DNA of 32,272 nucleotides, taken from positions 1 through 32,272 of IMG/VR virus record IMGVR_UViG_3300032083_000329. One strand, 5' to 3'. This DNA is from a virus. Both the position numbers and the translations under genes were made by a program. Of the stretch, positions 1-21,593 are shown piece after piece. Under the pieces are notes generated by a model. That model did not search any database, was not told the origin of the DNA, and was given only the letters and a program-made list of their open reading frames with translations. How positions within the stretch are numbered: position 1 is the stretch's first letter; each line of letters opens with the position of its first letter.

Positions 1-1120
1 ATTCTTGAGCCTTTAACTTTAACTCTGGAAAATCCCATCTTCCCTTTTCAGCATCAAGTAATATGATCGCATCACCCTCACCTTCTACGGGAGTAAATAT
101 CCCCCAAGTAGTAATAGCACTAAAGTCAGCACGATCATTTTTACTGAAAGCGGTATCGTATGATTGTATGATGTAGGAACACGGAGGTGGTTCAGAATTA
201 TCCCAAACATTCCACCACTCCCTTTTTATTATAGCTCCTTCTTCTGCCGTTGGGTTCTGCATATACTGTGCATTCCACTTGGCTACTGGAATTGACGCTT
301 TGACTCCATCTAATTCCTCTCTGCTCCAATATTCGGGCCAGAGAACATTGTTGGTATCTGGAAATATTGCAGGAAACTCCACGACTTCCCATTTATCTGC
401 GCCTCCTTCAGCTTGTTTGGATATAACTCTCGCTGTTAAATCCTTAATACCCCATCTCGTCATAACAATGATAATAGAGCCTCCTGGCTGCAATCTCTGT
501 CTAGGACCTGACGTATACCATTCGTAAATACTGTCTAAAGCTGTCGGACTTAATGCGTCTTGTTCAGATACAGGATCGTCAATAATACACAAATCAGCTC
601 CACGACCAGCCAAAGCACCACCAACCCCAACAGCATAATATTCTCCTCCACCATTTGTTGACCATCTACCTGATGCCTTCGCATCACTAGCCAATTTAAT
701 ATCAGGAAATATATCCCTGAAATCATCGCTATCAATTAAGTTCTTAACCTTACGACCAAATCCAACAGCTAACTCTGCCGTGTGTGTCGCTTGTATTATC
801 TTTAAATCAGGTCGTTTACCCATCAGCCACGCTGGAAACAAGTAACTCGCAAATTCTGATTTCGTATGTCTTGGTGGCATGTTAACAATTAAACGCTTTA
901 TCTTGCCGTCTGCCACTTGTTGCAATTTGTCTGCATAAATCTTATGATGCTTACCCTCAATGAAGGTGGGCCAAATCTTCTTTACAAACTTTAAGTAATT
1001 ATCTTGGCTTTTTTTTTGATTTTCTAACATAGAAAGTCTATCAAGCAAGGGAGCTAACTTGGAAAGCTCATCGTCACTTAGATATTCTGCAAATTCCTCT
1101 GCTTTTATCTGTTCATTCAT
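1..1120 (-). CDS. terL: Terminase large subunit (C-terminus beyond left edge)
   Basis: This is the ATPase-nuclease motor that packages phage DNA into the prohead. I translated it from ATG at 1118-1120 (MNEQIKAEEFAEYLSDDELS) to base 1, about 373 codons. Visible are the P-loop-like segment VNMPPRHTKSEFAS near residues 79-92, a Walker B LCIIDDPV, the coupling motif IIIVMTRWG, and the start of the RNase H-like nuclease, IIQSYDTAFSKNDRADFSAI, with its first catalytic Asp. The rest of the nuclease lies outside the window. The start overlaps the stop of the upstream gene (TAATG), so translation is probably coupled. TerS lies almost 7 kb away, which is unusual because terS and terL are usually adjacent. 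Confidence 0.95.
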   Translation of the reverse strand, partial: MNEQIKAEEFAEYLSDDELSKLAPLLDRLSMLENQKKSQDNYLKFVKKIWPTFIEGKHHKIYADKLQQVADGKIKRLIVNMPPRHTKSEFASYLFPAWLMGKRPDLKIIQATHTAELAVGFGRKVKNLIDSDDFRDIFPDIKLASDAKASGRWSTNGGGEYYAVGVGGALAGRGADLCIIDDPVSEQDALSPTALDSIYEWYTSGPRQRLQPGGSIIIVMTRWGIKDLTARVISKQAEGGADKWEVVEFPAIFPDTNNVLWPEYWSREELDGVKASIPVAKWNAQYMQNPTAEEGAIIKREWWNVWDNSEPPPCSYIIQSYDTAFSKNDRADFSAITTWGIFTPVEGEGDAIILLDAEKGRWDFPELKLKAQE

Positions 1121-3360
1121 TAGACTGACGCTAAAAAGTTATCCACAGCATTTATTAAACCACCTTCTGCATATCCAGCAACTCCACCTTGTTTCATAAA
1201 TTGAGGAGCAGCAACACCTGTTAATTGAGCAATTAAGGCATTTAAATCTCCAGCATCGAATCCAACAGGTGTGTAATCACCAACATTACTTGTGTAAGGA
1301 GAATCAACAACAACAGGACCACTCGCTGGAGGTGTTATAGGATCGCCTCCACCTATTACGTTTGGTGGCTTATCTCCATCGTCTTCTTCTTCTATTGGTT
1401 TTGCTATTGGTTTTCTAAGAATTAATGGATTGTCGCTTTCATCTCCACCAATTTCGTTGTCATCATACATGCCTAACGATGGAGATGTTTTATCAAAAAC
1501 GTCATACCCATCTACAGTTGTTCCTGACCCAAAAAGACCTCCGGGCTGACCCATACCAATACCATAATTCGTTGTACCTGTTATACTTCCTTCTTTATCA
1601 TAGGTTGGTGTAAAACCTTTACTAATATTGTCTATTGTATTTTGTGCGCCTCTTTTGGTTGCTGCGTTAATTAAACCAGTGACAACACCAAGAGTACCAG
1701 GAACCTTATCAAGATTTGGAAATGAACCTTTCTTAGCTTGTTCCTCAACATCTGCTAAAGCATCTATGTCTGTGCTGAAATCACTCTTGTCTCTACTTGA
1801 ACCAAATCCAGTTATGTCTGCATTAGTGTTTGGACCACTCGTTGGGCTAACTGATGCTATTGAAGGAGTGTTTATACTAGGACCTAAACCTACGCCTTGT
1901 AAGCTCAAACCTAAAGGATCATCATCGCCCTTAGCACCAATGTTACTGAAATTAGTGTTAGCAGCTGCTTGAACATTAGAAGTAGGTGGGCCTCCAGGCA
2001 TAGAGCCAGATGTTTTTCCAGTTGTTGTTGTACCACTTTTTGACGGTGCAAGACTTAATTGAGTGTCAATTAAAGATTGCTGGTTAGCTTTATTTTGATT
2101 GATGGCTTGATTAATATTAGCTTTGTTTTGTGCTGCTAAAGCCCTATTTTGTATTTCATTCGCTGCGGCTTGTGCTTGTGCTACTGCCTGACCAATCTCT
2201 GAAGCTCTGTCCATATCATCTTTACCAGTGTCAGTGTCTTGAGTCGTATATCCATAATCAACATCTGTGTAATCCATGTCCTGATCTGGATCGGAATAGT
2301 CAGTGTTGTCACTAAAAGTGTTGTCACCACTGAAATCACTATAATCGCTAGGAGCATCTACGCTACTATAATCACTGAAACCACCAAAGTCGCTATCATC
2401 ATAATAACTCGGAATACCCATAGGTCCTGGCTTACCCGCACCTCCTAATGCCTTCAATATCCCACCTTCTTCGGGTGTTATATACGATAACATATGATCC
2501 TGACCCATAATCTCTGTACGTCTAGGTGGAACATTCCCACCTTCTGCAAAACCTCTTAACCCACCTAAAGATCCAAGAGATGAAAGAATGCCTCTATCTG
2601 AACCAAAACCTCCCATTGGAGATTGACCTGGCATTGGACGTTGCCCAATCGTAGAAGGCTGTACAGAAGGTACAGCAGTTCTAACTCTATTCTCCATAAC
2701 TGGATTATTAAAAATAGCTTGACCTTGAGTTGGAGCATCTCTCGTTGTTGAAAAAGTTGAAAACAAATCATTAAGAGATTGATTGTTGTAACCAGAAGAT
2801 GATTGATTAATACGATTTGGATCGTTAAAGTTGCCTGTCACAGAACCAAATTGATTTTGTCCTTGACCAATTGATTGAGAAGGTGAACTAGATAAGTTAC
2901 TCAATGCAAGAGGAGAACCAACATATGCTTGAAAAGGATTGGCATTCATGCCACCAGATTGACTTTGATCTAAATTAAACCTATCACTCGCCATCTCCTG
3001 AACTTCTTGTATAAATGGCTGAACTTGAGTGTTTTCTATCGTTTGTGATAAATAATCACCATAACTAGATAAAGGACTACCTGCAACTCCACCGTCAGCC
3101 ATCATCATAGGCGGTTGCATAACAGAATTTGTAGGTGGCTGATTGAATATATCAATATTCGCCATCGGATTGCCACCCATAGGAGGCATAGGGGATGACC
3201 CCATTGGAGGAATCGGGGTCATAGCTGTTGTCGATGGTATGGACTTCAAGAAATTACTAAAACCACCCCTGCTTTCAGCAGTTGTCGTGAAATTTACTTG
3301 TGGTGGCTGTGCAGGAGCAGGAGGCGTACCCATAAATCCACCCATAGGACCATTAACCAT
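1120..3360 (-). CDS. Gly/Pro/Ser-rich putative virion protein with ADGG/AEGG motifs
   Basis: A 746-residue low-complexity protein. The N-terminus is Met/Pro/Gly-rich (PPMGGNPMAN). ADGGVAGSP (about residue 88), FAEGGNVPPRR (about 272) and KQGGVAGYAEGG near the C-terminus recur in marine podovirus virion proteins, as does the phrase HMLSYITPEEGGILKALGG. The middle has a strongly acidic Asp/Tyr/Ser tract (about 315-385), followed by an Ala/Gln/Asn helical stretch (AQAQAAANEIQNRALAAQNKANINQ). The start is supported by GGAG about 7 nt upstream. Its place before terL and its composition suggest a structural or DNA-ejection role, but no catalytic motif is visible, so the function is inferred. Confidence 0.75.
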   Translation of the reverse strand: MVNGPMGGFMGTPPAPAQPPQVNFTTTAESRGGFSNFLKSIPSTTAMTPIPPMGSSPMPPMGGNPMANIDIFNQPPTNSVMQPPMMMADGGVAGSPLSSYGDYLSQTIENTQVQPFIQEVQEMASDRFNLDQSQSGGMNANPFQAYVGSPLALSNLSSSPSQSIGQGQNQFGSVTGNFNDPNRINQSSSGYNNQSLNDLFSTFSTTRDAPTQGQAIFNNPVMENRVRTAVPSVQPSTIGQRPMPGQSPMGGFGSDRGILSSLGSLGGLRGFAEGGNVPPRRTEIMGQDHMLSYITPEEGGILKALGGAGKPGPMGIPSYYDDSDFGGFSDYSSVDAPSDYSDFSGDNTFSDNTDYSDPDQDMDYTDVDYGYTTQDTDTGKDDMDRASEIGQAVAQAQAAANEIQNRALAAQNKANINQAINQNKANQQSLIDTQLSLAPSKSGTTTTGKTSGSMPGGPPTSNVQAAANTNFSNIGAKGDDDPLGLSLQGVGLGPSINTPSIASVSPTSGPNTNADITGFGSSRDKSDFSTDIDALADVEEQAKKGSFPNLDKVPGTLGVVTGLINAATKRGAQNTIDNISKGFTPTYDKEGSITGTTNYGIGMGQPGGLFGSGTTVDGYDVFDKTSPSLGMYDDNEIGGDESDNPLILRKPIAKPIEEEDDGDKPPNVIGGGDPITPPASGPVVVDSPYTSNVGDYTPVGFDAGDLNALIAQLTGVAAPQFMKQGGVAGYAEGGLINAVDNFLASV

Positions 3361-3404
3361 GAAAAATCTCCAAAAAAACTAGTCTTTGAAGCTATGATAT
3401 ACGA

Positions 3405-3812
3405 TTAATTCATCTTTGACAACATCAGTTGCATTTCTTTGTCGCACTGCAACAAAACTTTGGACACATATACCCTATCATTCATCTTTTCAGCCTCTGG
3501 AATCATGTGAGATATAGCATTGCTCAACTTCCATATCCTCTGCTTGTCAAATTCACTCAATGGATTGTCATTTTCATCGAAATCACGCACTTCAGCATGA
3601 CTCTTACTAGCCTCGCCATCATTCATCAGGTACAAAACTGCATATTTGATCGGTATCGGTATCTGATAAGTGTCAGTCTCATAACATCTATAACCCCTCT
3701 CACTCAATCCTAGCTTCTGTGCCATCACAATTTGGCTTAAACCTAATAACTTACGCTTCTCACGCAGCTCAGAACCATTCCAATCACAATAACTCTTTTC
3801 GTTCTTCTTCAT
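3405..3812 (-). CDS. XRE-type helix-turn-helix protein
   Basis: A 135-residue DNA-binding protein. The N-terminal HTH reads LREKRKLLGLSQIVMAQKLGLSERGYRCYE, a classic HTH_3/XRE layout with the LSQ...A..LG.S...Y pattern. The C-terminal half is charged and helical without a known fold (EFDKQRIWKLSNAISHMIPEAEKM). I chose the ATG at 3812 (MKKNEKSYCDWNG), not the upstream in-frame start at 3836, because GGAGGAG lies 6-7 nt before it. It overlaps the end of the upstream small gene by 29 nt, so the two form an operon. A regulatory role for virion or packaging genes is plausible, but the target is unknown. Confidence 0.8.
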   Translation of the reverse strand: MKKNEKSYCDWNGSELREKRKLLGLSQIVMAQKLGLSERGYRCYETDTYQIPIPIKYAVLYLMNDGEASKSHAEVRDFDENDNPLSEFDKQRIWKLSNAISHMIPEAEKMNDRVYVSKVLLQCDKEMQLMLSKMN

Positions 3813-4065
3813 TTGGCATCTCCTCCAATATTCCATAACGCATTAAATCTTTAGCAAAGTCCAAATCACTCCCAAACCTCACCGGCTTACCAGTCCAATT
3901 GCACGCAATCGCTGCACAAGTTCTTACGAAGTCTCCCCTTATCGGGTCAGCGCCTACAAACGTCTTGTATAGCTCGTCAATGACACCCTCTGGTCCAGGG
4001 GATTCAAAATACGACTTCGTTGGATATTCTAGTTTATACTTAGGCATAAAGTACTTATAGGGCAT
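3784..4065 (-). CDS. Small protein of unknown function
   Basis: An ORF of up to 93 residues with no recognised domain: MPKYKLEYPTKSYFESPGPEGVIDELYKTFVGADPIRGDFVRTCAA and so on. It looks like a folded single-domain protein, mixed alpha/beta, with two Cys. Two starts are possible: ATG 4065 (weak AGG upstream) or ATG 4047 (MPKYK). A promoter-like pair (TTGACG at 4078-4083, TATAAG at 4054-4059) would place the transcript start almost on the 4047 ATG, giving a leaderless message. The 3' end overlaps the HTH gene, so the pair is probably co-expressed. I do not recognise the family. Confidence 0.65.
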   Translation of the reverse strand: MPYKYFMPKYKLEYPTKSYFESPGPEGVIDELYKTFVGADPIRGDFVRTCAAIACNWTGKPVRFGSDLDFAKDLMRYGILEEMPNEEERKELL

Positions 4066-4083
4066 CAGTGCCTAAAGCGTCAA
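4054..4083 (-). promoter_or_regulatory. Candidate sigma70 promoter before the small-protein/HTH pair
   Basis: On the minus strand there is TTGACG, an 18-bp spacer and TATAAG. The 18-bp spacer and non-consensus last bases make it only fair. If used, translation would have to start at ATG 4047. Confidence 0.35.
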
Positions 4084-4185
4084 TATTTTTTTTATAAAAT
4101 TTTTTTTGGGTCGTGTTTCAAAAACATGGTGGGCGTATCTGGAGAACTCGGCGTAAAGGATCACCAGTGCAACAATTATTATTTT

Positions 4186-4207
4186 GGGGCGTGTATAGGT
4201 ACGCCCC
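4186..4207. other. GC-rich hairpin followed by a run of eight C
   Basis: GGGGCGT (4186-4192) pairs with ACGCCCC (4201-4207) across an 8-nt loop, next to a run of eight C at 4204-4211. There is no T tract on either side, so it does not look like an ordinary terminator. It sits in the 215-bp gap 4066-4280, which otherwise holds T-rich tracts, the promoter candidate above and the terminator at 4221-4255. Its role is unknown; a processing, packaging or pausing signal is possible. Confidence 0.5.
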
Positions 4208-4220
4208 CCCCGAATTGTAG

Positions 4221-4255
4221 ACAAAAAAATAACCTATAAAAATATTATAGGTTAT
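4221..4255 (-). terminator. Intrinsic terminator of the amidoligase cassette
   Basis: ATAACCTATAA (4229-4239) and TTATAGGTTAT (4245-4255) form an 11-bp stem with a 5-nt loop. On the minus strand it is followed by TTTTTTT. It lies about 26 nt after the amidoligase stop codon. Confidence 0.8.
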
Positions 4256-4280
4256 CTTAATTAGATTTAAGAAATACACA

Positions 4281-5474
4281 TTAGCTAAAATGTGTAATTC
4301 TATTTAGTAAGTAAGTTTTATATTCATCTTCTAAACCTACTAGAAAATGATCTTCAACACTTTCATCAATTGAGTTACTAGTAATAGCAACATCTATATG
4401 ACTAGGTATTTTATAACCATTTAAATCATGTTGTTCATTACTAGTTCCATATCTATGGTTATAGTGTTGTTGTGTTAAACACTCTACAGAATGATGACTA
4501 AACTTTGATCTAATAGTTGAAATAGTTCTTCTAACAGATTTAGCATTATCTATTCCACAATGTGCCATGATCTCTTTTGTAGTTGCTCCATTATCTGTTT
4601 TACATAAAGACCACAACAAACCTAGTTTAGAATTAGGATTGAAAGGTTGATTAGGTAAATCTTGCCTTTCAATTCTACTATTATTAGCTAACAATCTATT
4701 GTTAATAGAATGATTAAACATATTAGCTAACATCATAACAAATGGTTTTACCTTGTCTCTTTCAAGTGTTGCTCCATGTTGTCTAAACTCAATAGTTCCA
4801 TATCTTGCATATGATTGAAGATTAATAGCAAAAAACTTGTCTCTTCTATTAGTTGATGAATGCCTTTGAATAGCATTCATTAAAGAAGACACAGAACCAT
4901 CACATTGACGAATGGCATCAACACATAATTCTAAACCTTGGCAAAATCTATTGTTTGTTCTGCTAGGTGGAAATATTTTGTTAATGTCTAATTGATGAAT
5001 AGCATATCTTAAAACAACATCTTTAATTATTGCATTGTCTAAAACATCATCAAAAGAACTAGAAGATTGTGAAACATACGATCTATTAGTTCTATACTTA
5101 TCGATTGATAATTTAGTAAAATCTTGATTTGTTATATTTGTAGATATAGGTTTTAAACCTATATGGACATGAACTCCACAACACTTTTTAACACTACATC
5201 CATTATTAACAAGTAATGTTAAAACCTTATTCACATAGTACCATGATAACTCACTATCAATTGATAATATTGGAAATGCTATTTCAAAATCAACTCCGTG
5301 CGTACCATCTGTTTTAACTTGAATAAAGTTTAACTCTTCATCATTGTTAAAAACTGTTTGTAGTTCACTAATTGATTGAGTGTTTCCACGACTAGTAAAA
5401 ACCCCCTCAAATTCTAATCCCATTGTAAGACTAGTTCTATTTGTGTTTTGTAAAATATTCAATTTGTACTCCAT
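4281..5474 (-). CDS. Amidoligase (Amidoligase_2 / GCS2-like fold)
   Basis: A predicted ATP-dependent COOH-NH2 ligase that would join an amino group to a carboxylate, making amide-linked peptides or modifying a protein or wall component. Family landmarks appear in order: MGLEFEGVF (metal-binding Glu pair, residues 18-26), VKTDGTHGVDFEIAFPIL (about 53-70), CCGVHVHIGL (about 98-107) and AINLQSYARYGTIEFRQHGATL (about 217-238). The C-terminal third adds a winged-helix-like segment (GATTKEIMAHCGIDNAKSVRRTISTIR). Amidoligases are known from phages and commonly pair with AIG2/GGCT cyclotransferases; one lies in the next cassette. There is no clear Shine-Dalgarno before ATG 5474. The gene has its own terminator and a weak upstream promoter candidate, so it looks like a moron. 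The substrate cannot be read from sequence. Confidence 0.9.
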   Translation of the reverse strand: MEYKLNILQNTNRTSLTMGLEFEGVFTSRGNTQSISELQTVFNNDEELNFIQVKTDGTHGVDFEIAFPILSIDSELSWYYVNKVLTLLVNNGCSVKKCCGVHVHIGLKPISTNITNQDFTKLSIDKYRTNRSYVSQSSSSFDDVLDNAIIKDVVLRYAIHQLDINKIFPPSRTNNRFCQGLELCVDAIRQCDGSVSSLMNAIQRHSSTNRRDKFFAINLQSYARYGTIEFRQHGATLERDKVKPFVMMLANMFNHSINNRLLANNSRIERQDLPNQPFNPNSKLGLLWSLCKTDNGATTKEIMAHCGIDNAKSVRRTISTIRSKFSHHSVECLTQQHYNHRYGTSNEQHDLNGYKIPSHIDVAITSNSIDESVEDHFLVGLEDEYKTYLLNRITHFS

Positions 5475-5502
5475 TGGCTAATTTGATTTAATTTACTCAT
5501 AG

Positions 5503-5531
5503 AGCATACCACAATAGGAACTCCATACCTA
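5503..5531 (-). promoter_or_regulatory. Candidate extended -10 promoter of the amidoligase
   Basis: On the minus strand TGG-TATGCT (TATGCT at 5503-5508) resembles an extended -10, but the -35 (TAGGTA, 5526-5531) is poor. The 8-mer TAGGAACT lies in the spacer on the plus strand (about 5515-5522) and recurs at two other promoters. A weak -35 would fit a promoter needing an activator. Confidence 0.35.
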
Positions 5532-5534
5532 ATA

Positions 5535-5969
5535 AAAAATGCGAACAATTGCATTTTTTTTGCACTTTTTTTTTAAAATGTGTTCACCTGTAAAACAATT
5601 TTTTTGGAAATTGTTCGCAATTTTTTTCAGGTTTTACCTGGACACGGCTGGTCTGAAAATCGGATACCGAACAAGTCCGACCCCGACCCCGACCCGAAGT
5701 CCGATCCCGAACCCGATCCCGAGCCTTCTGCCTGGACACTGGTTAGAAAACCGAACAATTGTTCGCAATTTGACCAGGAGGCAGCAGTCACAGCGGCAAC
5801 CTGTGCAGCGCAGGCTGCTGTTTACCTGGCTTGCAGCTCCCGAATACCGAACAATTGTTACCAGTTACGCATACCTGGAACGCTGTGAAGGCGTTTCCCT
5901 GGAGGATCTGGTTAAAAACTGAACAATTGTTCGCTCCCGAAGCCCGGTAGATCCAGGCTCCGAACAAAG
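5535..5969. repeat. GC-rich repeat island 1 with GAACAATTG sites, CCWGG and CCCGA runs
   Basis: Most of the 549-bp gap between the amidoligase and cyclotransferase cassettes; I see no credible gene. GAACAATTG-type sites start at about 5543, 5613 (reverse), 5753, 5849 and 5921, with shorter GAACAA forms at 5669, 5962 and 6008. The sites at 5753 and 5921 are the full palindrome GAACAATTGTTC. The stretch 5665-5722 is a run of CCCGA/CCGAC units. At least seven CCWGG sites are present. 5781-5820 can fold through CAGCAG/CTGCTG and an inner CACAG/CTGTG pairing. The base composition contrasts sharply with the AT-rich genes on both sides. Confidence 0.8.
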
Positions 5970-6004
5970 AAAAACCCCAGAAGCGTGAAGCAACTGGGGT
6001 TTTT
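5970..6004 (-). terminator. Intrinsic terminator of the cyclotransferase cassette
   Basis: AAAAACCCCAG (5970-5980) pairs with CTGGGGTTTTT (5994-6004), an 11-bp stem with a 13-nt loop. T tracts are present in both directions, so it may work bidirectionally. It starts 20 nt beyond the cyclotransferase stop. Confidence 0.88.
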
Positions 6005-6023
6005 ACCGAACAAATTAAAGGAT

Positions 6024-6470
6024 CTAGCCCGAAGCCCTCCCCATCTTCAGGATCTCTTGTGTCCGATCTGCTTGTTTGTAAGCATCTCTCAAGGCCCAAG
6101 CAAGATGATCTCCATCAAGACCGAAGTCCTTGTACCCTTGTGCTATGCTATCGTAGTAATGTTTGAATGGTAAGCCCACTCCTTTCCTAGACATGACGTA
6201 AGTCATGGCATTTAAACCATCTACATGGATCATTTTCTTTTTATATAAATGAGGGAAGCCCTCGAATCTATCAAGTGCTTTCTCATCTGCTTTCTGTATT
6301 TCCCACAAACCTATCTGAACCTCGTCCCCTTTTGAGGGTCTGATGTCAGCTACAGTATTAAACACTAGTTTCCAATCTTTTAAGACAGTACCATACAAAG
6401 GTACTGCCGTTGGGGTTCTTGTTTCCATGTTCTTCTTGTTAAGGTTTGCACCGTAAGATGCGTATAACAT
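6024..6470 (-). CDS. Gamma-glutamylcyclotransferase-like (AIG2/GGCT family) protein
   Basis: A 148-residue cytosolic enzyme, full length for the family. GGCT-fold enzymes release a gamma-glutamyl group as 5-oxoproline from a gamma-glutamyl-amine or peptide. The N-terminal substrate loop is MLYASYGANLN (family YGSNLN). LDRFEG has the conserved Glu at residue 70 in the position of the catalytic acid, followed by FPHLYKKKMI. The ATG at 6470 has GGAG 10 nt upstream. It is transcribed alone from a near-perfect promoter (6507-6535) to a terminator (5970-6004). Its neighbour is an amidoligase, the classic partner, so the two may make and trim an amide-linked product. The actual substrate is unknown; catalysis is inferred from the motifs. 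Confidence 0.88.
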   Translation of the reverse strand: MLYASYGANLNKKNMETRTPTAVPLYGTVLKDWKLVFNTVADIRPSKGDEVQIGLWEIQKADEKALDRFEGFPHLYKKKMIHVDGLNAMTYVMSRKGVGLPFKHYYDSIAQGYKDFGLDGDHLAWALRDAYKQADRTQEILKMGRASG

Positions 6471-6506
6471 TAGCTTGTCTCTCCTTTGGCTTGTTTACTT
6501 AATACT

Positions 6507-6535
6507 AATATAAGCATTGAGTTCCTCCATGTCAA
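6507..6535 (-). promoter_or_regulatory. Sigma70 promoter of the cyclotransferase gene
   Basis: On the minus strand TTGACA (6530-6535), exactly 17 bp, then TATATT (6507-6512). The spacer contains GAGGAACT, one base from the TAGGAACT seen at other promoters in the window. Confidence 0.85.
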
Positions 6536-6559
6536 TAAATAATATATCATATGACATAA

Positions 6560-6840
6560 TTTATTTTGCCGCTGCTGTGACCTGGATACAGCTGGGAGGT
6601 AACGAACAATTGTTCGTTTTTTCACCCAGGGAGGCTGCTGTGGTTCAGGAAGGCAGCCGTGCTGTGACGCATGCTGCAGCGCAATTCCGAACAATTGTGA
6701 CCCCGAGGCTGCACTGGGTAAGCTGGGTAACAGCGCGAAGCCTTCTCCCTGGTTGCGTAAGCGAACAATTGTGAAGCCCGAACCCGACCTGGAAAAAGGA
6801 ACCAGTGCTGCTGCAAGCGAACAATTTTTAATTCAGGCAC
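6560..6840. repeat. GC-rich repeat island 2
   Basis: Fills the gap of about 420 bp between the cyclotransferase and the 141-aa gene, apart from the promoter and terminator at its ends; no credible gene. GAACAATT sites start at 6604, 6689, 6763 and 6819, spaced 85, 74 and 56 bp. The first is an 18-bp palindrome, AACGAACAATTGTTCGTT. CCWGG occurs near 6580, 6627, 6747 and 6787, and CAGCTGGG or similar near 6590 and 6720. The order CCTGG, CAGCTGGG, then GCGAACAATTGTG recurs, as in island 3. Confidence 0.8.
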
Positions 6841-6865
6841 AAAAAAAGGCAACCCGAAGGTTGCC
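6841..6865 (-). terminator. Intrinsic terminator of the zinc-ribbon/141-aa unit
   Basis: GGCAACC (6848-6854) and GGTTGCC (6859-6865) form a 7-bp stem closed by a TTCG tetraloop on the minus strand, followed by seven T. It lies 23 nt beyond the stop codon of the 141-aa gene. Confidence 0.92.
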
Positions 6866-6888
6866 CTTTCCTCTTCCAGCCAATGGAA

Positions 6889-7314
6889 TTACCTGAAATA
6901 AAAGAATCTTGCAAACTGTAGCAATATATCTTCATCTTGTTCTTTTGTTCGCTCCCAAGGAGTGAACCAATCCTGACCCTGAAGCTCTGCCGTTTCGGGT
7001 TCTCCGTGTTCGTCTAACTCACCAACGATCTGAACGGCAGGCCCACCTGTTCCAAGCAGTAGCTTATAGTGTGTTGGGTATCTGTATTCATCATGCGAAT
7101 TGACATCGTGCCAATCGCTTCTGACCTCAACACATAAAGGCATATTTCTTATTTCTTCTTCAACCTCATCAATAACTAAACCCTCATCTTGTGATTCAAT
7201 GGCTTCATTCCACTTTTCAATAAGTTCCTTAATATATTCCATGTCGCCACTTCCAGGAATTTCCTTAACGATTGGCTCAAGTGCTTTGATTACGTTGCTT
7301 TCTAATGTACTCAT
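6889..7314 (-). CDS. Acidic protein of unknown function (141 aa)
   Basis: The N-terminal half is helical and acidic (SQDEGLVIDEVEEEIRNMP). The C-terminal half has a conserved-looking beta segment, YKLLLGTGGPAVQIVGELDEHGEPETAELQGQDWFTPW, which I associate from memory with an unnamed phage protein family (GGPA...GEL...GEP..A.L...DW.TPW). No catalytic residues can be assigned. GGGAG stands 7-8 nt upstream of the ATG, which overlaps the stop of the zinc-ribbon gene (TAATG), so the pair is translationally coupled. The same promoter (7515-7543) drives both, and the terminator at 6841-6865 ends the unit. Confidence 0.8.
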   Translation of the reverse strand: MSTLESNVIKALEPIVKEIPGSGDMEYIKELIEKWNEAIESQDEGLVIDEVEEEIRNMPLCVEVRSDWHDVNSHDEYRYPTHYKLLLGTGGPAVQIVGELDEHGEPETAELQGQDWFTPWERTKEQDEDILLQFARFFYFR

Positions 7315-7475
7315 TATTTTTCTCCCATTTGTTTAATTAAATCATATTCACAGTCTTTGCATGCGTAGTAAGGTAGCTGAACAGATGCCACTATTTCGTC
7401 TTCGTGGAATAAGTTCTTGCAACCGTCACACTCTGTGAAGTTATCAACAAGATAAGAGTTTTGAAATCTACTCAT
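7314..7475 (-). CDS. 53-aa zinc-ribbon protein
   Basis: I translated this small gene directly. It reads MSRFQNSYLVDNFTECDGCK, continues NLFHEDEIVASVQLPYYACK and ends DCEYDLIKQMGEK. CDGC (residues 16-19) and CKDC (39-42) form a likely four-Cys zinc site. GGAG stands about 7 nt upstream of the ATG, and a strong promoter lies 40-70 bp upstream. It is the first gene of a two-gene unit with the 141-aa protein. Zinc ribbons of this size in phages often bind nucleic acid or a host protein, but nothing here shows which. Confidence 0.8.
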   Translation of the reverse strand: MSRFQNSYLVDNFTECDGCKNLFHEDEIVASVQLPYYACKDCEYDLIKQMGEK

Positions 7476-7514
7476 TTTTCGTCTCCTTTGGCTGTTTTTG
7501 TTTGTCTTATTATT

Positions 7515-7543
7515 AATATAGGCTTTCAGTTCCTACATGTCAA
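7515..7543 (-). promoter_or_regulatory. Sigma70 promoter of the zinc-ribbon/141-aa unit
   Basis: TTGACA (7538-7543), 17-bp spacer, TATATT (7515-7520) on the minus strand. The spacer carries TAGGAACT. The promoter is nearly the same as that at 6507-6535 over about 38 bp, suggesting a duplicated cassette end. Confidence 0.87.
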
Positions 7544-7574
7544 CAAATAAAAACATTTTTTTTATTTTTATTTA

Positions 7575-7935
7575 GCAGCATATGTTCGGTTGACGCCAGG
7601 GCCCAGCTGGGTAAATGCGAACAATTGTGCGGTTTTAACCAGGACGCTTCCCTGGTCACAGCTGGGTGATTTTGCGAACAATTGTGAGTTTCCTTCGCAC
7701 TGGGAGATCCAGGCAGCCCGACCCCGAACAATTGTGACGTTCCTTCAGGGGGTGACCAGGGTCCGAAGTCCGACAATCCCGAACAATTGTGCGGTCTGGA
7801 CGCAACAGCGAATCCCGACACCGAACAATTTGGCGTTGACCCGGGCTATGCTGCTGCCCGAAATACCGAACAATTTAAGCCCGACCAGCCCGAAAGCCCG
7901 ACACCCCCGAAACCCGAGGGTGAACGCCTGACCCG
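7575..7935. repeat. GC-rich repeat island 3 with six spaced GAACAATT sites
   Basis: Between the 7.5-kb promoter and the end of terS; no credible gene. GAACAATT starts at 7619, 7676, 7726, 7781, 7823 and 7868, spaced 57, 50, 55, 42 and 45 bp, all in the same orientation. The first four are followed by GTG. CCWGG occurs near 7597, 7638, 7649, 7708 and 7755, and ACCAGG/CCTGGT at 7638-7656 can form a hairpin. The distal part (7845-7940) is dominated by CCCGA units. Open frames here translate to repeated NNC or HNCS strings and look like by-products of the repeats. Confidence 0.82.
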
Positions 7936-7953
7936 ACCCTCCAAGTAAATTTG

Positions 7954-8481
7954 CTATTTAGTGGGTTTTACATTAATTTGCTCTATCGTAATTGGCTCGT
8001 TATGGGATTTGTTCGCTATTTTCATGCGTTTATGGGCAATGTCTTGAAATTCCTGAAGTTTTGACAGAATTTCTTCTCTTGTCATGCTATCTGTACGCTC
8101 ATGTAGCACATGGGCTTTATTTACAAGCAGTCCAGTAGCCTTTAAGCGTAGTTCTTCAGCCCTGATAGCTTCACCGAATTTGCCTGACTCCCATGCTTCG
8201 TTACGTATTTTGAGTAAGTCACGCACCGACTTATCGATTGTGACCCCGAACCGAGTTTGTGCTTCATCACGCATTTCCTGATAACGCTCTTGGACAACTG
8301 GGTTACGGAGTAACCTGACGGCATCGACACCTGGATTTGCGTATCCTGCTGACCTAGCTGCAGAAGTCTGCGTCATATCCTTATGCATAAAGTTATTCAG
8401 AAAGTCTTGCTGCTTATCAGTCAATCTTTTCCAACCTGCTAATCTTTGTTCTTTCGTTAAATCTTGTGCTACCTTTGGCAT
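7954..8481 (-). CDS. terS: Terminase small subunit
   Basis: This is the DNA-recognition subunit that marks the genome for packaging. In its 175 residues the N-terminal helix-turn-helix is typical of the Terminase_2 family: LTDKQQDFLNNFMHKDMTQTSAARSAGYANPGVDAVRLLRNPVVQERYQEM. The middle (about 75-125) is helical and suits ring oligomerisation (VRDLLKIRNEAWESGKFGEAIRAEELRLKATGLL). The ATG at 8481 follows GGAGAT at about 11 nt. It is separated from terL by the accessory cassettes, and the iteron field lies just upstream, in reach of a possible packaging or origin function. No terminator is seen after it, so transcripts may run into island 3. Confidence 0.88.
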   Translation of the reverse strand: MPKVAQDLTKEQRLAGWKRLTDKQQDFLNNFMHKDMTQTSAARSAGYANPGVDAVRLLRNPVVQERYQEMRDEAQTRFGVTIDKSVRDLLKIRNEAWESGKFGEAIRAEELRLKATGLLVNKAHVLHERTDSMTREEILSKLQEFQDIAHKRMKIANKSHNEPITIEQINVKPTK

Positions 8482-8509
8482 CTTATTTTATCTCCATTTA
8501 AATAGGTTC

Positions 8510-8745
8510 TATAGGGTAAGGTGGGGTGGTTTACTTACCACCCACCTATACCCCCTTTAGGGGGTAAGTTCGGTAAGTAAAAAAGTAGGAGCAAAATCAA
8601 TGACTTACAACCTAAAATTAACTTACCGTGGTAAGAAGTAACCTCGGTAAGTAGATTTACGCAAACCGAGGCTACACAAGGGTTTGCCAACTTACCGACC
8701 AATCTACTTACCGTGGTAAGTTGGTAAGTGGTAAGTAAATCACTC
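8510..8745. repeat. GGTAAG/CTTACC iteron field (origin or operator candidate)
   Basis: About twelve copies of the hexamer GGTAAG or its complement CTTACC in 230 bp between terS and the next gene. Two copies of the spaced palindrome CTTACCGTGGTAAG start near 8622 and 8705. TACCCCC/GGGGGTA forms a 7-bp hairpin at 8549-8566. The density and mixed orientation fit initiator-binding iterons or a cooperative operator. The open frame through it (8535-8771) consists of repeat-derived residues and is not supported. Confidence 0.75.
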
Positions 8746-9036
8746 ATAAAGCACCACAATTTTGGGGTCATCAGTAGTCTTATAGAACGTACCGTTAAGG
8801 GTACAAATATACCCTAAATGTCGCATCATCTGATCGTAATTTCTGTAGCATTCAGGGCATGAATATACATCATACGAACAATTCATGTGGTGCAGCACGG
8901 ATGATGTTAACTGTTGGGCTATACCTTTTTCTGTGGCACATCCGAGGCAAATTGTTCGGTTATTCATCACCAGTTCCATGCCTAGGACAATTTTTTCTTG
9001 GCATTCAGCACACTTTGTTTGTTTTTTCTTAGGCAT
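8740..9036 (-). CDS. 98-aa protein with multiple CxxC zinc-binding motifs
   Basis: Begins MPKKKQTKCAECQEKIVLG, with CAEC, CLGC and CPEC motifs plus further Cys, enough for two zinc sites. The first half resembles a treble-clef or ribbon (C..C...C..C within about 25 residues). The second half has YSCPECYRNYDQMMRHLGYIC, which looks like a second C2H2- or C4-type unit. The ATG is preceded by GGAGG 6 nt upstream. It is the last gene of the small-gene operon and ends inside the iteron field. Nucleic-acid binding is plausible but not shown. Confidence 0.78.
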   Translation of the reverse strand: MPKKKQTKCAECQEKIVLGMELVMNNRTICLGCATEKGIAQQLTSSVLHHMNCSYDVYSCPECYRNYDQMMRHLGYICTLNGTFYKTTDDPKIVVLYE

Positions 9037-9222
9037 TTATACCTCCTGACTTATGCTTTGTGTTTCCATATTGCTATGAAGCGTAGTGTAATCACGCCTC
9101 TTGGCTATGGTTTCCCATTGTTTCACGGCTTGATCGTAGTTATCAGCTTCGATCTGAACCATGTAATACTTTGTTTCCTTGCAATGGATAACAAATTTTT
9201 CTTTAGGTAGTTTTCTAATCAT
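9037..9222 (-). CDS. Small protein of unknown function (61 aa)
   Basis: Reads MIRKLPKEKFVIHCKETKYY and continues with VQIEADNYDQAVKQWETIAK. The shape is a beta-alpha unit (beta strands YYMVQIEA, then helix DNYDQAVKQWETI), like many small ferredoxin-fold phage proteins. I chose ATG 9222 because GGAGGAG lies just upstream and it overlaps the previous stop (TAATG). No function can be assigned. Confidence 0.65.
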   Translation of the reverse strand: MIRKLPKEKFVIHCKETKYYMVQIEADNYDQAVKQWETIAKRRDYTTLHSNMETQSISQEV

Positions 9223-9452
9223 TATGCTCCTCCAAAACATCCAGCCATAATTTTATGATCTATAGGCTCTTCGCCAAAATTATCATATATAGCGGCTTCT
9301 ATTAATTGTTCGCTTTTCGGTATATCGCTGCGGCATTGATCCAACGTCATATACTTCACTTGGCTTTCATGCATCATACACTTCTGCTCACCACCGTCAT
9401 AGCGACTACCCTCAACCCAAACGACACATATTAGTACAAACATTTTAACCAT
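9222..9452 (-). CDS. Small Cys-containing protein with a possible signal peptide (76 aa)
   Basis: The N-terminus MVKMFVLICVVWVEGSRYDG has one Lys followed by a short hydrophobic run, weakly like a signal peptide or membrane anchor. The body has Cys at CMMHES, QCRSDI and AGCFGG, suggesting disulfides if exported. I chose ATG 9452 because GGAGG lies 5 nt upstream; ATG 9464 lacks a site. Tandem hairpins precede it (9472-9515). It might act at the envelope, for example in superinfection exclusion, but only the hydrophobic start supports that. Confidence 0.65.
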   Translation of the reverse strand: MVKMFVLICVVWVEGSRYDGGEQKCMMHESQVKYMTLDQCRSDIPKSEQLIEAAIYDNFGEEPIDHKIMAGCFGGA

Positions 9453-9471
9453 ATATTCCTCCATAATTAGC

Positions 9472-9515
9472 GAGATGGGCTACCCTAGAAAGGATTAAAA
9501 CCGATAGCCCATCTC
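9472..9515 (-). promoter_or_regulatory. Stable hairpin in the leader of the 76-aa gene
   Basis: GAGATGGGCTA (9472-9482) pairs perfectly with TAGCCCATCTC (9505-9515) across a 22-nt loop. A second smaller inverted repeat, ACCATT/AATGGT, lies just to its right (about 9518-9546). No T tract follows on the minus strand, so a processing site or translation-control hairpin fits better than a terminator. Confidence 0.65.
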
Positions 9516-9548: not shown

Positions 9549-10193
9549 TCACTTCTCCTTTTTAGTCTTCCAAAAGTATTCATCTGTATCACCAAGCCTA
9601 GTGTTATTGCCATTTTCGACTTGATATTCAATCGTACTAACCAAGAAATCAGGTTTAAGTGGCTCTTGTGGTGTAAGGCTATTGTCAAACACTCTCATTC
9701 TATTGTTCGGATATAGACAATATTGACCATTATCTAATTCAAGTAGATTAAAAGACTTATGTTCGGAAGGCACTTCGCTAGTGCTATAATCAATAACATC
9801 AGGTTGATTGTGGTAGTTATCCAATGTGCATATATACACACCTTTAACGATACCAAAATCCCTGGTTAGTATTTCAAAATCCATGCTGCCTATAAACTGT
9901 TTATGGATAGCCGTAATATTATAATCCATGCAGTTCCAAAACTGTAGGTTGGGCAAATCCATATCCAACTTAGGTTTTTTAGGTTCTGACACAAAGGCGC
10001 TGATAGGTAGCTTATCGAACAAAGCACCATATTCGGGTAAATAAGTTTCAAAGTAAAAGGCTCGACCAGCCATAGACTTTGCAGTAACCCAAACACCTTT
10101 AACAAATTCTCCATGACCATCTTTCAGATCACGGAGATATTCTTTACGAACCCACACTTGTTGTGCTGGAAGATTACATATTAAATCTGACAT
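9549..10193 (-). CDS. Conserved-type phage protein of unknown function (214 aa)
   Basis: Begins MSDLICNLPAQQVWVRKEYL and continues RDLKDGHGEFVKGVWVTAKS. It is rich in aromatic residues and beta strands (GRAFYFETYLPEYGALFDKLPISAFV; YNITAIHKQFIGSMDFEILT; GQYCLYPNNRMRVFD), with a polar Lys-rich C-terminus. It looks like a well-folded globular protein. I recall similar proteins in marine phages without a function. The ATG overlaps the stop of the upstream gene, consistent with coupling. Confidence 0.72.
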   Translation of the reverse strand: MSDLICNLPAQQVWVRKEYLRDLKDGHGEFVKGVWVTAKSMAGRAFYFETYLPEYGALFDKLPISAFVSEPKKPKLDMDLPNLQFWNCMDYNITAIHKQFIGSMDFEILTRDFGIVKGVYICTLDNYHNQPDVIDYSTSEVPSEHKSFNLLELDNGQYCLYPNNRMRVFDNSLTPQEPLKPDFLVSTIEYQVENGNNTRLGDTDEYFWKTKKEK

Positions 10194-12067: not shown

Positions 12068-12254
12068 AGCGAACATCCCATGTAGCATTATCAGGTTTGC
12101 AGGGCCAACAAAACCAAGACCAGCCGTTATTGATTGAATACGAAGCACCTGGTTTTCCACAAACCGAACAAATGTTCGTCTTTGGTATGGGCTGCGCTGC
12201 TGCAACCCATGTTCTTTTCACATCCCATGTTCTTCGTCTACTTTGTTCGCTCAT
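12060..12254 (-). CDS. Zinc-ribbon protein (64 aa)
   Basis: MSEQSRRRTWDVKRTWVAAA has a basic start, then CSVCGKPG and CWPCKPDN make a four-Cys ribbon with an aromatic loop (NNGWSWFC). GGAGG lies 6 nt before ATG 12254. It overlaps the end of the methyltransferase gene by 17 nt. Together with the next gene it reproduces the two-module plan of the 122-aa protein, so this is either a gene split or the ancestral two-gene state. Confidence 0.72.
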   Translation of the reverse strand: MSEQSRRRTWDVKRTWVAAAQPIPKTNICSVCGKPGASYSINNGWSWFCWPCKPDNATWDVRYD

Positions 12255-13302
12255 TTTCTGCCTCCTTTATTGCCCAAAATAACCTTGCAGCTACTTGGGG
12301 AACTATACTATTCCCCAAGGATTTTATTCGGTGTGTCCGATTGGATACCCCATGAGCCACTCGACCCACTCGGGGTTCAGGCTTCCACCAGATTGGTCCT
12401 GATCCGATTTCGAGTCGTCTATCTCGCTCATTCTCTTGACTATTACCCCCAATTGAGTGTCTTGCCTCTTGCTCCGATACAGATCCAGGTTCTCCCCCGA
12501 GTCCTTGTAATCCCGAGCCGTTGGTGTAGGGTACATCTCCCTTTTCTTTTTTTCTGCCATCGCAACTGCTGTCTGAAGTGTCGCTCCGAACTTCGTTCCC
12601 GTTCCTTTCCTCGTCACCGTGTAACCCGATTGATTCTCCTCCACATAATCCCCCATTCCTGGGAAGTAGTCCGTTGCTTTCGGTGTGGGCCACATCTTCA
12701 TCGTGTTCTCGTCCACTTGCTCCCTCAAATTGGAAGGTTTGCTGCGACCTTTCCGATGTCCGTTCATCATTCGGATTGTAGCTTCTTCTGACCTTTGGGG
12801 TAGATGATCCATCGTGTTCGGTGTGGCCCACAATCCAACATCGTTCTCGTCTGTGTTTGGCATCTGCGGCGCAAGCTGGAATAATAAATGGTGCGGCTTT
12901 GTATCCGATACTCTCCAAGTCAAAGAGACTTCTTTTGAGGCCCATTGGCATGTTAACAAAGCCTCGCACATTTTCCCCAATGATCCATCGAGGTCGTATG
13001 TCTTCAATAACCCTAACCATTTCGTGCCAGAGATCACGGTCATCTGAATCTCCTCGTTGTTCTCCTGCGACTGACCAGGGTTGGCAAGGGAATCCTCCAA
13101 CAACGATGTCTGCATCTCTAAATTCTTTTCCATCAAAACTCCTTATATCACTAAATATTGGAACATTATGCCAATGTTTTCGCAAGACTTTTTGGCAATA
13201 AGGTTCTCTCTCTACAAAGGCAACTGTTTCAAAGCCACCCACTAATTTCTCAGCAGCGTAACTAAAGCCACCGATCCCACTAAATAAATCAACTATTTTC
13301 AT
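12238..13302 (-). CDS. C5-cytosine DNA methyltransferase
   Basis: Transfers a methyl group from AdoMet to carbon 5 of cytosine in a specific DNA site. The 354 residues hold the full motif set: I VDLFSGIGGFSYA (4-16), IV GGFPCQPWS with catalytic Cys73, VI IGENVRG (108-114), VIII RRERCWIVG (151-159), and IX/X HRIKSLGNSIVPQVAARLFWAI near the end. The target-recognition region (about 165-300) has three HTE/YTNG-type repeats. I chose ATG 13302, which overlaps the upstream TGA (ATGA), over a TTG nine bases earlier. It may protect the phage from restriction; the recognition sequence cannot be read. A second long frame lies inside it (12324-13133). Confidence 0.95.
   Translation of the reverse strand: MKIVDLFSGIGGFSYAAEKLVGGFETVAFVEREPYCQKVLRKHWHNVPIFSDIRSFDGKEFRDADIVVGGFPCQPWSVAGEQRGDSDDRDLWHEMVRVIEDIRPRWIIGENVRGFVNMPMGLKRSLFDLESIGYKAAPFIIPACAADAKHRRERCWIVGHTEHDGSSTPKVRRSYNPNDERTSERSQQTFQFEGASGREHDEDVAHTESNGLLPRNGGLCGGESIGLHGDEERNGNEVRSDTSDSSCDGRKKEKGDVPYTNGSGLQGLGGEPGSVSEQEARHSIGGNSQENERDRRLEIGSGPIWWKPEPRVGRVAHGVSNRTHRIKSLGNSIVPQVAARLFWAIKEAENERTK
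12324..13133 (-). CDS. Overlapping frame inside the methyltransferase gene (WPTP-repeat / VEWLMGYP protein)
   Basis: 269 codons fully inside the methyltransferase gene on the same strand, shifted by one base. ATG 13133 is preceded by AAGGAG with a 5-nt spacer. The product contains DLDGSLGKMCEALLTCQW, SLTWRVSDTKPHHLLFQLAP, then three repeats LWATPNTMDH, MWPTPKATDY and MYPTPTARDY, and ends SLNPEWVEWLMGYPIGHTE. From memory, bacterial and phage databases hold proteins with exactly these phrases (LFQLAP, WPTPTA.D, LNP.WVEWLMG.P.GWT), often annotated as methylase-related. It could be a real overprinted gene or a frame kept open by the constraints on the methyltransferase. The function is unknown. 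Confidence 0.5.
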   Translation of the reverse strand: MEKNLEMQTSLLEDSLANPGQSQENNEEIQMTVISGTKWLGLLKTYDLDGSLGKMCEALLTCQWASKEVSLTWRVSDTKPHHLLFQLAPQMPNTDENDVGLWATPNTMDHLPQRSEEATIRMMNGHRKGRSKPSNLREQVDENTMKMWPTPKATDYFPGMGDYVEENQSGYTVTRKGTGTKFGATLQTAVAMAEKKKREMYPTPTARDYKDSGENLDLYRSKRQDTQLGVIVKRMSEIDDSKSDQDQSGGSLNPEWVEWLMGYPIGHTE

Positions 13303-14138
13303 CCCGTACAATCTCCTCCATCAGCTTGGCATAAGTACGCTTCATCGTTGAATATCCAATCTTGCTGTCTATCAACAAACTCTGCGAATTTCTTTAAGTT
13401 TCTTCCTCTCTCGAACTGTCTACCAGTTCTTTCTTCTGCATCAATCCACCATTTTGCTAGTTCAGGGTGGTCTCTCACCATTGATGCAAGTTGTGATTCA
13501 GACTTTAAAAAACATAAATCACAATTACCTTTAATAGTTTTGCCATTAACAACAGGCAAATCTAATTTAAAATCTTGTTTGTGCCAAAATTTATCAACGT
13601 CAAATATGGAATGATTAGCTTCACATATAGGATAAAAAGGGTAGAAGCCATTTGCAAAACCAGGTTTGCATCTGTGCTTTTCATCTGACCTTATACCCAA
13701 AGCGTTGTGCCACTTCTTCCAACCAAGGCTTCTTAAATACTTAGATGTTGTATCTCTTTTCAAGCTACCCGTACAAAACCTAGACATAGGATTAGGCAAT
13801 CTGTTGTGCTTATTTATTAATTTATCAAACGGTTCACCCTTACGACTTGCGTTGTCATAGTGAACAATTTTAAATACATGTTTGTTTTCTTCGTTCAAAT
13901 CATATTCTAACCAGGTAATTTTTACATCCCATTTTTGCGAACAATTATTTACGAAGTCCAATGTCTGTGGCATTTCACGACCAGTGTTTTGAAAGCAAAC
14001 CAAGGCGTTATCAGGCAATCCGTTGTTAGCTTCCAATATGTGATGAAGCATAAAGGCACTGGTTCTGCCTCCACTAAAGGATATGCAGACGTTATTGTCT
14101 GGAAGTTTATAAGTTTTCTGTTGCTGTTCTTGCATCAT
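13299..14138 (-). CDS. PAPS reductase-family PP-loop protein
   Basis: An adenine-nucleotide alpha-hydrolase fold, 279 residues. The PP-loop is ISFSGGRTSAFML (about 19-31), followed by FQNTGREMPQTLDFV, RFCTGSLKRD, ALGIRSDE and the Cys pair GNCDLCFLKS. Related proteins reduce adenylylated sulfate or, as in DndC, handle sulfur for DNA phosphorothioation. Phage members are widespread and uncharacterised. It is translationally coupled to the methyltransferase gene (ATGA) and overlaps the primase-helicase end by 32 nt. That context suggests nucleotide or DNA modification rather than sulfate assimilation. No dndD or dndE partner is in the window. Confidence 0.88.
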   Translation of the reverse strand: MMQEQQQKTYKLPDNNVCISFSGGRTSAFMLHHILEANNGLPDNALVCFQNTGREMPQTLDFVNNCSQKWDVKITWLEYDLNEENKHVFKIVHYDNASRKGEPFDKLINKHNRLPNPMSRFCTGSLKRDTTSKYLRSLGWKKWHNALGIRSDEKHRCKPGFANGFYPFYPICEANHSIFDVDKFWHKQDFKLDLPVVNGKTIKGNCDLCFLKSESQLASMVRDHPELAKWWIDAEERTGRQFERGRNLKKFAEFVDRQQDWIFNDEAYLCQADGGDCTG

Positions 14139-21103: not shown

Positions 21104-21526
21104 CTAAACTGATATATCTATGGTTGTGCCTTTAAGTTCAACAACTCTATGTTCTTGTAACTTAGCTTTGATCGCTGGTTGAGCTGCATTGTATTTCTTT
21201 TCTTCAACAGAATAAGTTAACTTTGCAAAGTGCCTAGCGTCATCAGGCTGCATTTCTGTAAACGCAACAGCAAGACCTTCTTGATCCCAAGTAACTTTCT
21301 TGCTTAATGTTACTTTGACCTTATAACCATCTTCATTGATAGTTACAGTACCATAATCTTTACCATCATCAGCCAGTCTGTCACGAGCATCATTCTGATA
21401 CCTTTCAGCTAACACAATGTTAAGATTATTTATCTTTTCTTTGACTTTATCTAATTCTTTTTTTAGATCCTCTTTATAATGATAAAGAGATTCAATAGAA
21501 TTATGAAACATTTTTTCGGCATTCAT
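21104..21526 (-). CDS. Coiled-coil protein of the recombination operon (140 aa)
   Basis: The N-terminal helix IESLYHYKEDLKKELDKVKEKINNLNIVLAERYQND (about 11-46) is a coiled coil. The second half is beta-rich (GTVTINEDGYKVKVTLSKKVTWDQEGLAVAF, AAQPAIKAKLQEHRVVELKG). I recall similar phage proteins with the KVTL.KKV.WDQ phrase next to Sak4 or RecT genes but no named function. It is the first gene of the leftward recombination operon, with a promoter at 21565-21593. A nuclease inhibitor or recombinase accessory role is possible. Confidence 0.72.
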   Translation of the reverse strand: MNAEKMFHNSIESLYHYKEDLKKELDKVKEKINNLNIVLAERYQNDARDRLADDGKDYGTVTINEDGYKVKVTLSKKVTWDQEGLAVAFTEMQPDDARHFAKLTYSVEEKKYNAAQPAIKAKLQEHRVVELKGTTIDISV

Positions 21527-21564: not shown

Positions 21565-21593
21565 AAAATAGGAACTGTAAACCAGTTTGTCAA
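21565..21593 (-). promoter_or_regulatory. Sigma70 promoter of the recombination/replication operon, with operator-like palindrome
   Basis: TTGACA (21588-21593), 17-bp spacer, TATTTT (21565-21570) on the minus strand. The spacer holds the inverted repeat AACTG-N5-CAGTT (21573-21587) and, on the plus strand, TAGGAACT. A repressor bound there would block the promoter. Confidence 0.75.

Follow-up and report, generated by a model that had tools for sequence, protein, structure and literature searches.

The interval between terS and terL in this phage is probably a fixed platform of regulated gene slots, characteristic of an uncultured marine phage family, in which open reading frames (ORFs) are exchanged by homologous recombination in shared flanks. 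The window, by which we mean the whole stretch of DNA analysed, is an entire IMG/VR record (32,272 bases) of a tailed phage, in which almost all genes are on the minus strand. Each slot would be an independent transcription unit. In order, it would comprise a strong sigma-70-type promoter, with an operator in its spacer for the XRE regulator that the phage itself encodes; a leader of stereotyped form with a ribosome site; a small ORF or two; a terminator; and a GC-rich spacer containing TCGGG runs and the dyad GAACAATTGTTC. Coinfecting phages would trade an ORF via the flanks they share, promoter and leader on one side and terminator, dyad and island on the other, so that the resident regulator would control incoming genes. 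At the dyads, short homologies would add or remove island units, at times whole segments, and annealing-type recombination is the presumed engine of the exchange.

Three transcription units lie between TerS and TerL (Table 1), namely a 53-aa CxxC ORF with p141, the gamma-glutamyl cyclotransferase (GGCT), and the amidoligase. They form a cassette zone of 3.7 kb, and the other ~3.1 kb toward terL is a constant block of the 93-aa ORF, the XRE regulator and the 746-aa protein. Each GC-rich island is situated between a terminator (or terS) and the following promoter. An Rfam search of positions 3000-9500 gave no match. An earlier note on this DNA had described three moron-like cassettes separated by repeat islands, each ending in an intrinsic terminator, two with near-consensus promoters and the third with a weak candidate. 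The three terminators are real as judged by folding against shuffles, and so are the two near-consensus promoters, which are near-identical and rank as the best two of 13 candidates in 3000-9000, a number of candidates not above chance. The third promoter went unscored in the promoter scan, although it holds the inverted operator word. The repeat islands are equally real, island 1 being upstream of the amidoligase, but no comparable island occurs between the amidoligase and terL.

Table 1. Features of the terS-terL interval, with positions in the window
Feature	Position	Strand	Remarks
terL	2..1120	-	truncated by record end
746-aa protein	1120..3360	-	constant place preceding terL
XRE/HTH_3-type regulator	3405..3836	-	HTH_3 E 9.7e-5, slightly under the curated cut-off; proposed reader of the promoter operator
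93-aa ORF	3784..4065	-	constant among relatives
Intrinsic terminator, amidoligase cassette	4221..4255	-	folding z = -4.2 vs shuffles
Amidoligase (PF12224)	4281..5474	-	Pfam E 1.7e-13; ~28% GC; core gene of the interval, conserved
Weak amidoligase promoter candidate	5503..5531	-	exact operator word, inverted, at 5516-5529
Island 1	~5530..5960	.	full dyads, half motifs, TCGGG run
Intrinsic terminator, GGCT cassette	5970..6004	-	folding z = -5.8 vs shuffles
GGCT, AIG2-like gamma-glutamyl cyclotransferase	6024..6470	-	PF06094 E 9.8e-8; phrog_2520 E 7.5e-26
Promoter TTGACA-17-TATATT	6507..6535	-	operator AGGAACTCAATGCT at 6513-6526
Island 2	6565..6840	.	four sites including one full dyad; first motif ~12 nt past terminator
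Intrinsic terminator, p141 cassette	6841..6867	-	folding z = -4.2 vs shuffles
p141, variable-slot gene	6889..7314	-	c15 in its place in L006/L008/L025/L026
53-aa CxxC/CxxC ORF (c18)	7314..7475	-	
Promoter TTGACA-17-TATATT	7515..7543	-	operator AGGAACTGAAAGCC at 7521-7534
Island 3	7575..7945	.	six AATTGTTC motif copies and TCGGG run; G4 pattern 7889-7915, terS-sense strand
terS (terminase small subunit, PF03592)	7954..8481	-	Pfam E 5.7e-9; phrog_51; left border of cassette zone

Relatives were gathered by a TerS search of viral contigs (80 loci) and a search for the 14-mer CCGAACAATTGTTC; in the 14-mer set, TerS, TerL, GGCT or amidoligase of this family is present in 78 of 118 loci. Among the annotated GenBank phages in the collection, none has this TerS at E <= 1e-5, nor was it found in bacterial and archaeal genomes. 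In about 100 IMG/VR contigs of related phages, cassette content varies between terS and terL and the islands persist, as the earlier note had predicted. The amidoligase is present in all 58 contigs with a complete interval, GGCT lies inside the interval in 27 of them and upstream of terS in several other clades, and the first gene of at least 85 aa past terS belongs to at least 13 families in the relatives' intervals. On this distribution the amidoligase is a core gene and GGCT is usually kept, and only the p141 slot would be moron-like in the window. Two contigs, L024 and L025, are nearly identical in the flanks on both sides (mostly 96-100% per 50-bp block), with p141 in one and c15 in the other. 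Compared with the window, L003 is longer by 394 bp, an extra stretch with two small ORFs that follows the GGCT promoter and ribosome site and precedes the GGCT start codon. p141 and c15 have their first residues (up to ~47) in common with each other in the window clade (L006 and L008 compared with the window) and not elsewhere, which suggests that these may be chimeric ORFs.

The relatives nearest by TerL (56-62% identity) are phages 023Pt_psg01 and DSL-LC04 and the pelagiphages HTVC027P and HTVC023P. Like the slot phages, they have several kb (~3-5 kb) of small genes separating terS and terL; unlike them, they have a distant TerS, and no dyad cluster, island, GGCT or amidoligase was detected in them. 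Since these cultured relatives also have a wide gap there without islands, islands alone are not its cause, and the cassettes by themselves do not explain the terS-terL distance.

Edges of replaced segments were analysed in pairs with at least 92% identity outside those segments. Among 47 non-redundant left edges, each of which marks the end of homology and not necessarily the crossover point, 15 lie 50-80 bp past the -35 element, that is at the start codon, where 2.5% of positions would be expected (nominal p = 3e-13, an overstatement because related phages are not independent). Right edges fall at the stop codon, the terminator or an island. Many swaps start at the start codon directly past the promoter and ribosome site and finish at the stop codon or terminator, within flanks that are ~96% identical on average and often 100%. 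This pattern suggests movement of the ORFs alone, their promoters remaining with the resident regulator. Only a third of the left edges are inside the 50-80 bp range, so other swap routes exist. Chimeric assembly of these metagenomic contigs could mimic swaps; the pattern recurs in independent data sets. Integron-like exchange seems unlikely, the slots having their own promoters and the swaps tracking homology.

The islands recombine as well. Three deletions of ~55-75 bp distinguish the islands of the window and L006; the junctions of two are at CACAATTGTTCG copies and that of the third at CCAGG. Island 2 is where L006 has a unit deletion. Compared with L052, L068 lacks 597 bp between two palindromes, an island-to-island deletion that left one hybrid copy. 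These junctions and the variable slot content are what the earlier note's model of morons inserted at a hotspot, with the islands as exchange points, would lead one to expect; but swap edges are most often at start codons and at stop codons or terminators, and only some are in islands. The cassettes do resemble phage morons in having their own promoter and terminator (the amidoligase promoter being weak) and an odd composition (the low GC of the amidoligase), and p141, which some close relatives lack, is accessory-like, as are other slot genes. The ubiquitous amidoligase and the widely kept GGCT, in contrast, are not typical moron insertions, and the slot promoters appear as part of a phage regulon instead of isolated insertions. 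With relatives that are wide at terS-terL without islands, the hotspot model is partly refuted and in our view improbable. The earlier note is thus partly supported: its cassette observation was right and its central prediction came true, and its interpretation needs changing to regulated ORF-swapping slots with a fixed frame.

An operator-like word in the promoter spacer is common to all slots of one phage. The word derived from the window promoters has three mismatch-free occurrences in 32 kb, one per cassette. A fourth putative operator-bearing promoter, TTGACA-17-TATTTT at 21565..21593 (minus strand), with the operator inverted at 21570-21583 with one mismatch, is followed by a 140-aa gene at 21104-21526. 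Relatives also have an operator at the amidoligase promoter position, and L018 (20.5 kb) has four occurrences of its corresponding word, every one at slot promoters. The word differs with the type of XRE protein encoded ahead of the 746-aa gene, being AGGAACTSAAWGC in the window clade, TGYAATSATTRC in the 128-aa HTH group, and AGGMANTNAATGCC-like or GTAATGATTAC-like in others; closely similar words (GYAATSATTRC) are common to several HTH groups. Gene families c12, c15, c22 and c29 are found under different operator words in different phages. The association of operator and regulator is not proof of binding, because both groupings, HTH and operator, also track phage lineage; it is consistent with slots that would be repressed by the XRE protein.

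The islands are arrays of the dyad (C)GAACAATTGTTC(G), present as CGAACAATTGTTCG and its 3' half AATTGTTCG, and of strand-biased TCGGG runs. The motif CGAACAATTGT, with at most two mismatches, occurs 53 times in the window against 12.4 expected (sd 3.0, maximum 21 in 100 shuffles), and all except two of the exact copies are within islands. In 65 contigs picked by TerS alone (~53% TerS identity to that of the window), GAACAATTGTTC was the top palindrome in an unbiased palindrome count; it is found within 3 kb 3' of terS in 57 of them, with 119 copies 3' of terS vs 0 in 208 kb upstream. The dyad is more conserved than TerS, and its AATT centre is nearly invariant (380 of ~420 copies). The motif is present in 92% of the gaps in the zone, and 465 of 477 copies are upstream of a promoter. 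The first motif follows the terminator T-run by 10-14 nt in about one third of cases, compared with 3-4% at random positions, and distances after terminators peak at ~12 and ~31 nt, which may reflect helical phasing. Unrelated ORFs share the dyad half TTGTTCG at their stop codons, either overlapping or directly adjacent (GGCT 29/49, c7 15/17, background 2%). The TCGGG runs favour the terS-sense strand (2182 vs 306), as do G4 patterns (140 vs 8), none of which occurs in 515 kb upstream. Dyad conservation, terminator phasing, stop-codon overlap and the TCGGG/G4 bias argue for a function at the DNA level. In divergent phages an exact GAACAATTGTTC is apparently within the amidoligase reading frame, in L205 (position 2254 after terS) and similarly in L206 and L222.

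Several readings of the dyad were weighed. It could act as a transcription insulator, where a protein bound 10-14 nt past the terminator stops read-through between slots; the phasing after the T-run and the slots' own terminators and promoters favour this, but it leaves unexplained the TCGGG runs and why arrays can reach nine or ten copies, and we consider it rather unlikely as an account of the dyad. It concerns the dyad only and is compatible with the slot model. About equally tentative is the idea that the dyad, the terminator phasing and the strand-biased G-rich runs might form a dedicated cis system with a conserved phage protein as its reader; this system would mark slot borders and direct recombination there, a homologous-recombination exchange platform replacing an integrase. 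An HTH regulator reading the dyad was rejected, as the dyad is constant while the HTH type and the promoter operator change.

The dyads and G-rich runs might instead be packaging (pac) sites bound by TerS, with the genes merely among them. The dyads are concentrated 3' of terS, their biggest array adjoins terS in most window-like phages, and the dyad accompanies TerS of this type, cultured relatives with a distant TerS having none. Nevertheless, the dyad marks every cassette border in phase with terminators, and in the L065/L074 clade, whose TerS is 83% identical, copies are few and altered. Directly upstream of terS, at 8527-8745 of the window, ACTTACC/GGTAAGT dyads form another array, with 12 copies in 300 bp (28 in 32 kb), and 7-12 copies are conserved in most relatives. 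This array is a candidate packaging site or origin, and as the better pac candidate it weakens the pac reading of the dyad, to which we attach little probability. Least probable by far is a host LexA (SOS) box: the M. tuberculosis dnaE2 gene has the identical 14 bp as a LexA site (PMC8607333), but SOS boxes of the GAAC-N4-GTTC kind have a variable centre and are located at SOS promoters, and the remaining LexA sites given there have centres unlike the one that the dyad keeps, while 97% of the dyad copies are upstream of promoters at varying distance.

GGCT and amidoligase belong to recognised enzyme families (Pfam, PHROGs). Gene pairs of the two, with PF12224 adjoining an AIG2-like cyclotransferase, were reportedly described by Iyer in 2009; the slot array likewise places them side by side, but each as a separate transcription unit. 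For phages of OM43 bacteria, it has been discussed that amidoligases may modify the cell wall to counter superinfection (PMC10580990). For the other slot proteins, searches of Pfam, PHROGs and NCBIfam gave no function, the families matching unnamed PHROGs only or nothing, and the AlphaFold2 model of p141 was unusable (mean pLDDT 45.8). Distant relatives of p141 occur in the early region of P-SCSP1-group cyanophages; in P-SCSP1g the relative is the first gene of the record, preceding the RNA polymerase gene, which is consistent with an early role. We predict that the slots are expressed early, and putative accessory roles of their proteins include counter-defence or host takeover.

The closest known system, as far as it is described in PMC4503421 (citing Arbiol 2010 and Comeau 2014), appears to be that of the PeSLs (promoter early stem-loops), mobile promoter-terminator regulatory cassettes of T4-type phages. 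On that description, both systems repeat promoter and terminator stem-loop motifs at the gene junctions of a variable region and are tied to the shuffling of small genes; in the slots, element-bounded exchange accounts for a significant share of edges, not all. Unlike PeSLs as described there, the slots have an operator that follows the resident XRE regulator, add a conserved dyad phased to the terminator together with GC-rich islands, and are at a fixed site between terS and terL. The window phage is also not T4-type, its TerL relatives being podovirus-type pelagiphages, and its promoters are plain TTGACA/TATATT and not T4 early promoters.

Arguments about how accessory genes are swapped with regulation left intact usually rest on mosaics, seen only afterwards. 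At this one locus of a widespread uncultured marine family, near-identical pairs show the frame, the ORFs that move and the junctions of recombination: with a repeated DNA word and repressor-matched promoters fixed and small genes swapped, virus gene exchange becomes readable from sequence. The locus would predict the promoter over any newly arriving gene, and the slots provide a ready list of small proteins for tests of host-takeover or counter-defence activity.

Elsewhere in the window, a 214-aa gene at 9549-10193, annotated as PurM or ferredoxin in cyanophages, is ~70% identical in DNA to Synechococcus and Prochlorococcus phages. A C5 cytosine methylase gene (PF00145) is located at 12238-13311, in a stretch of ~45-50% GC, above the remaining record.
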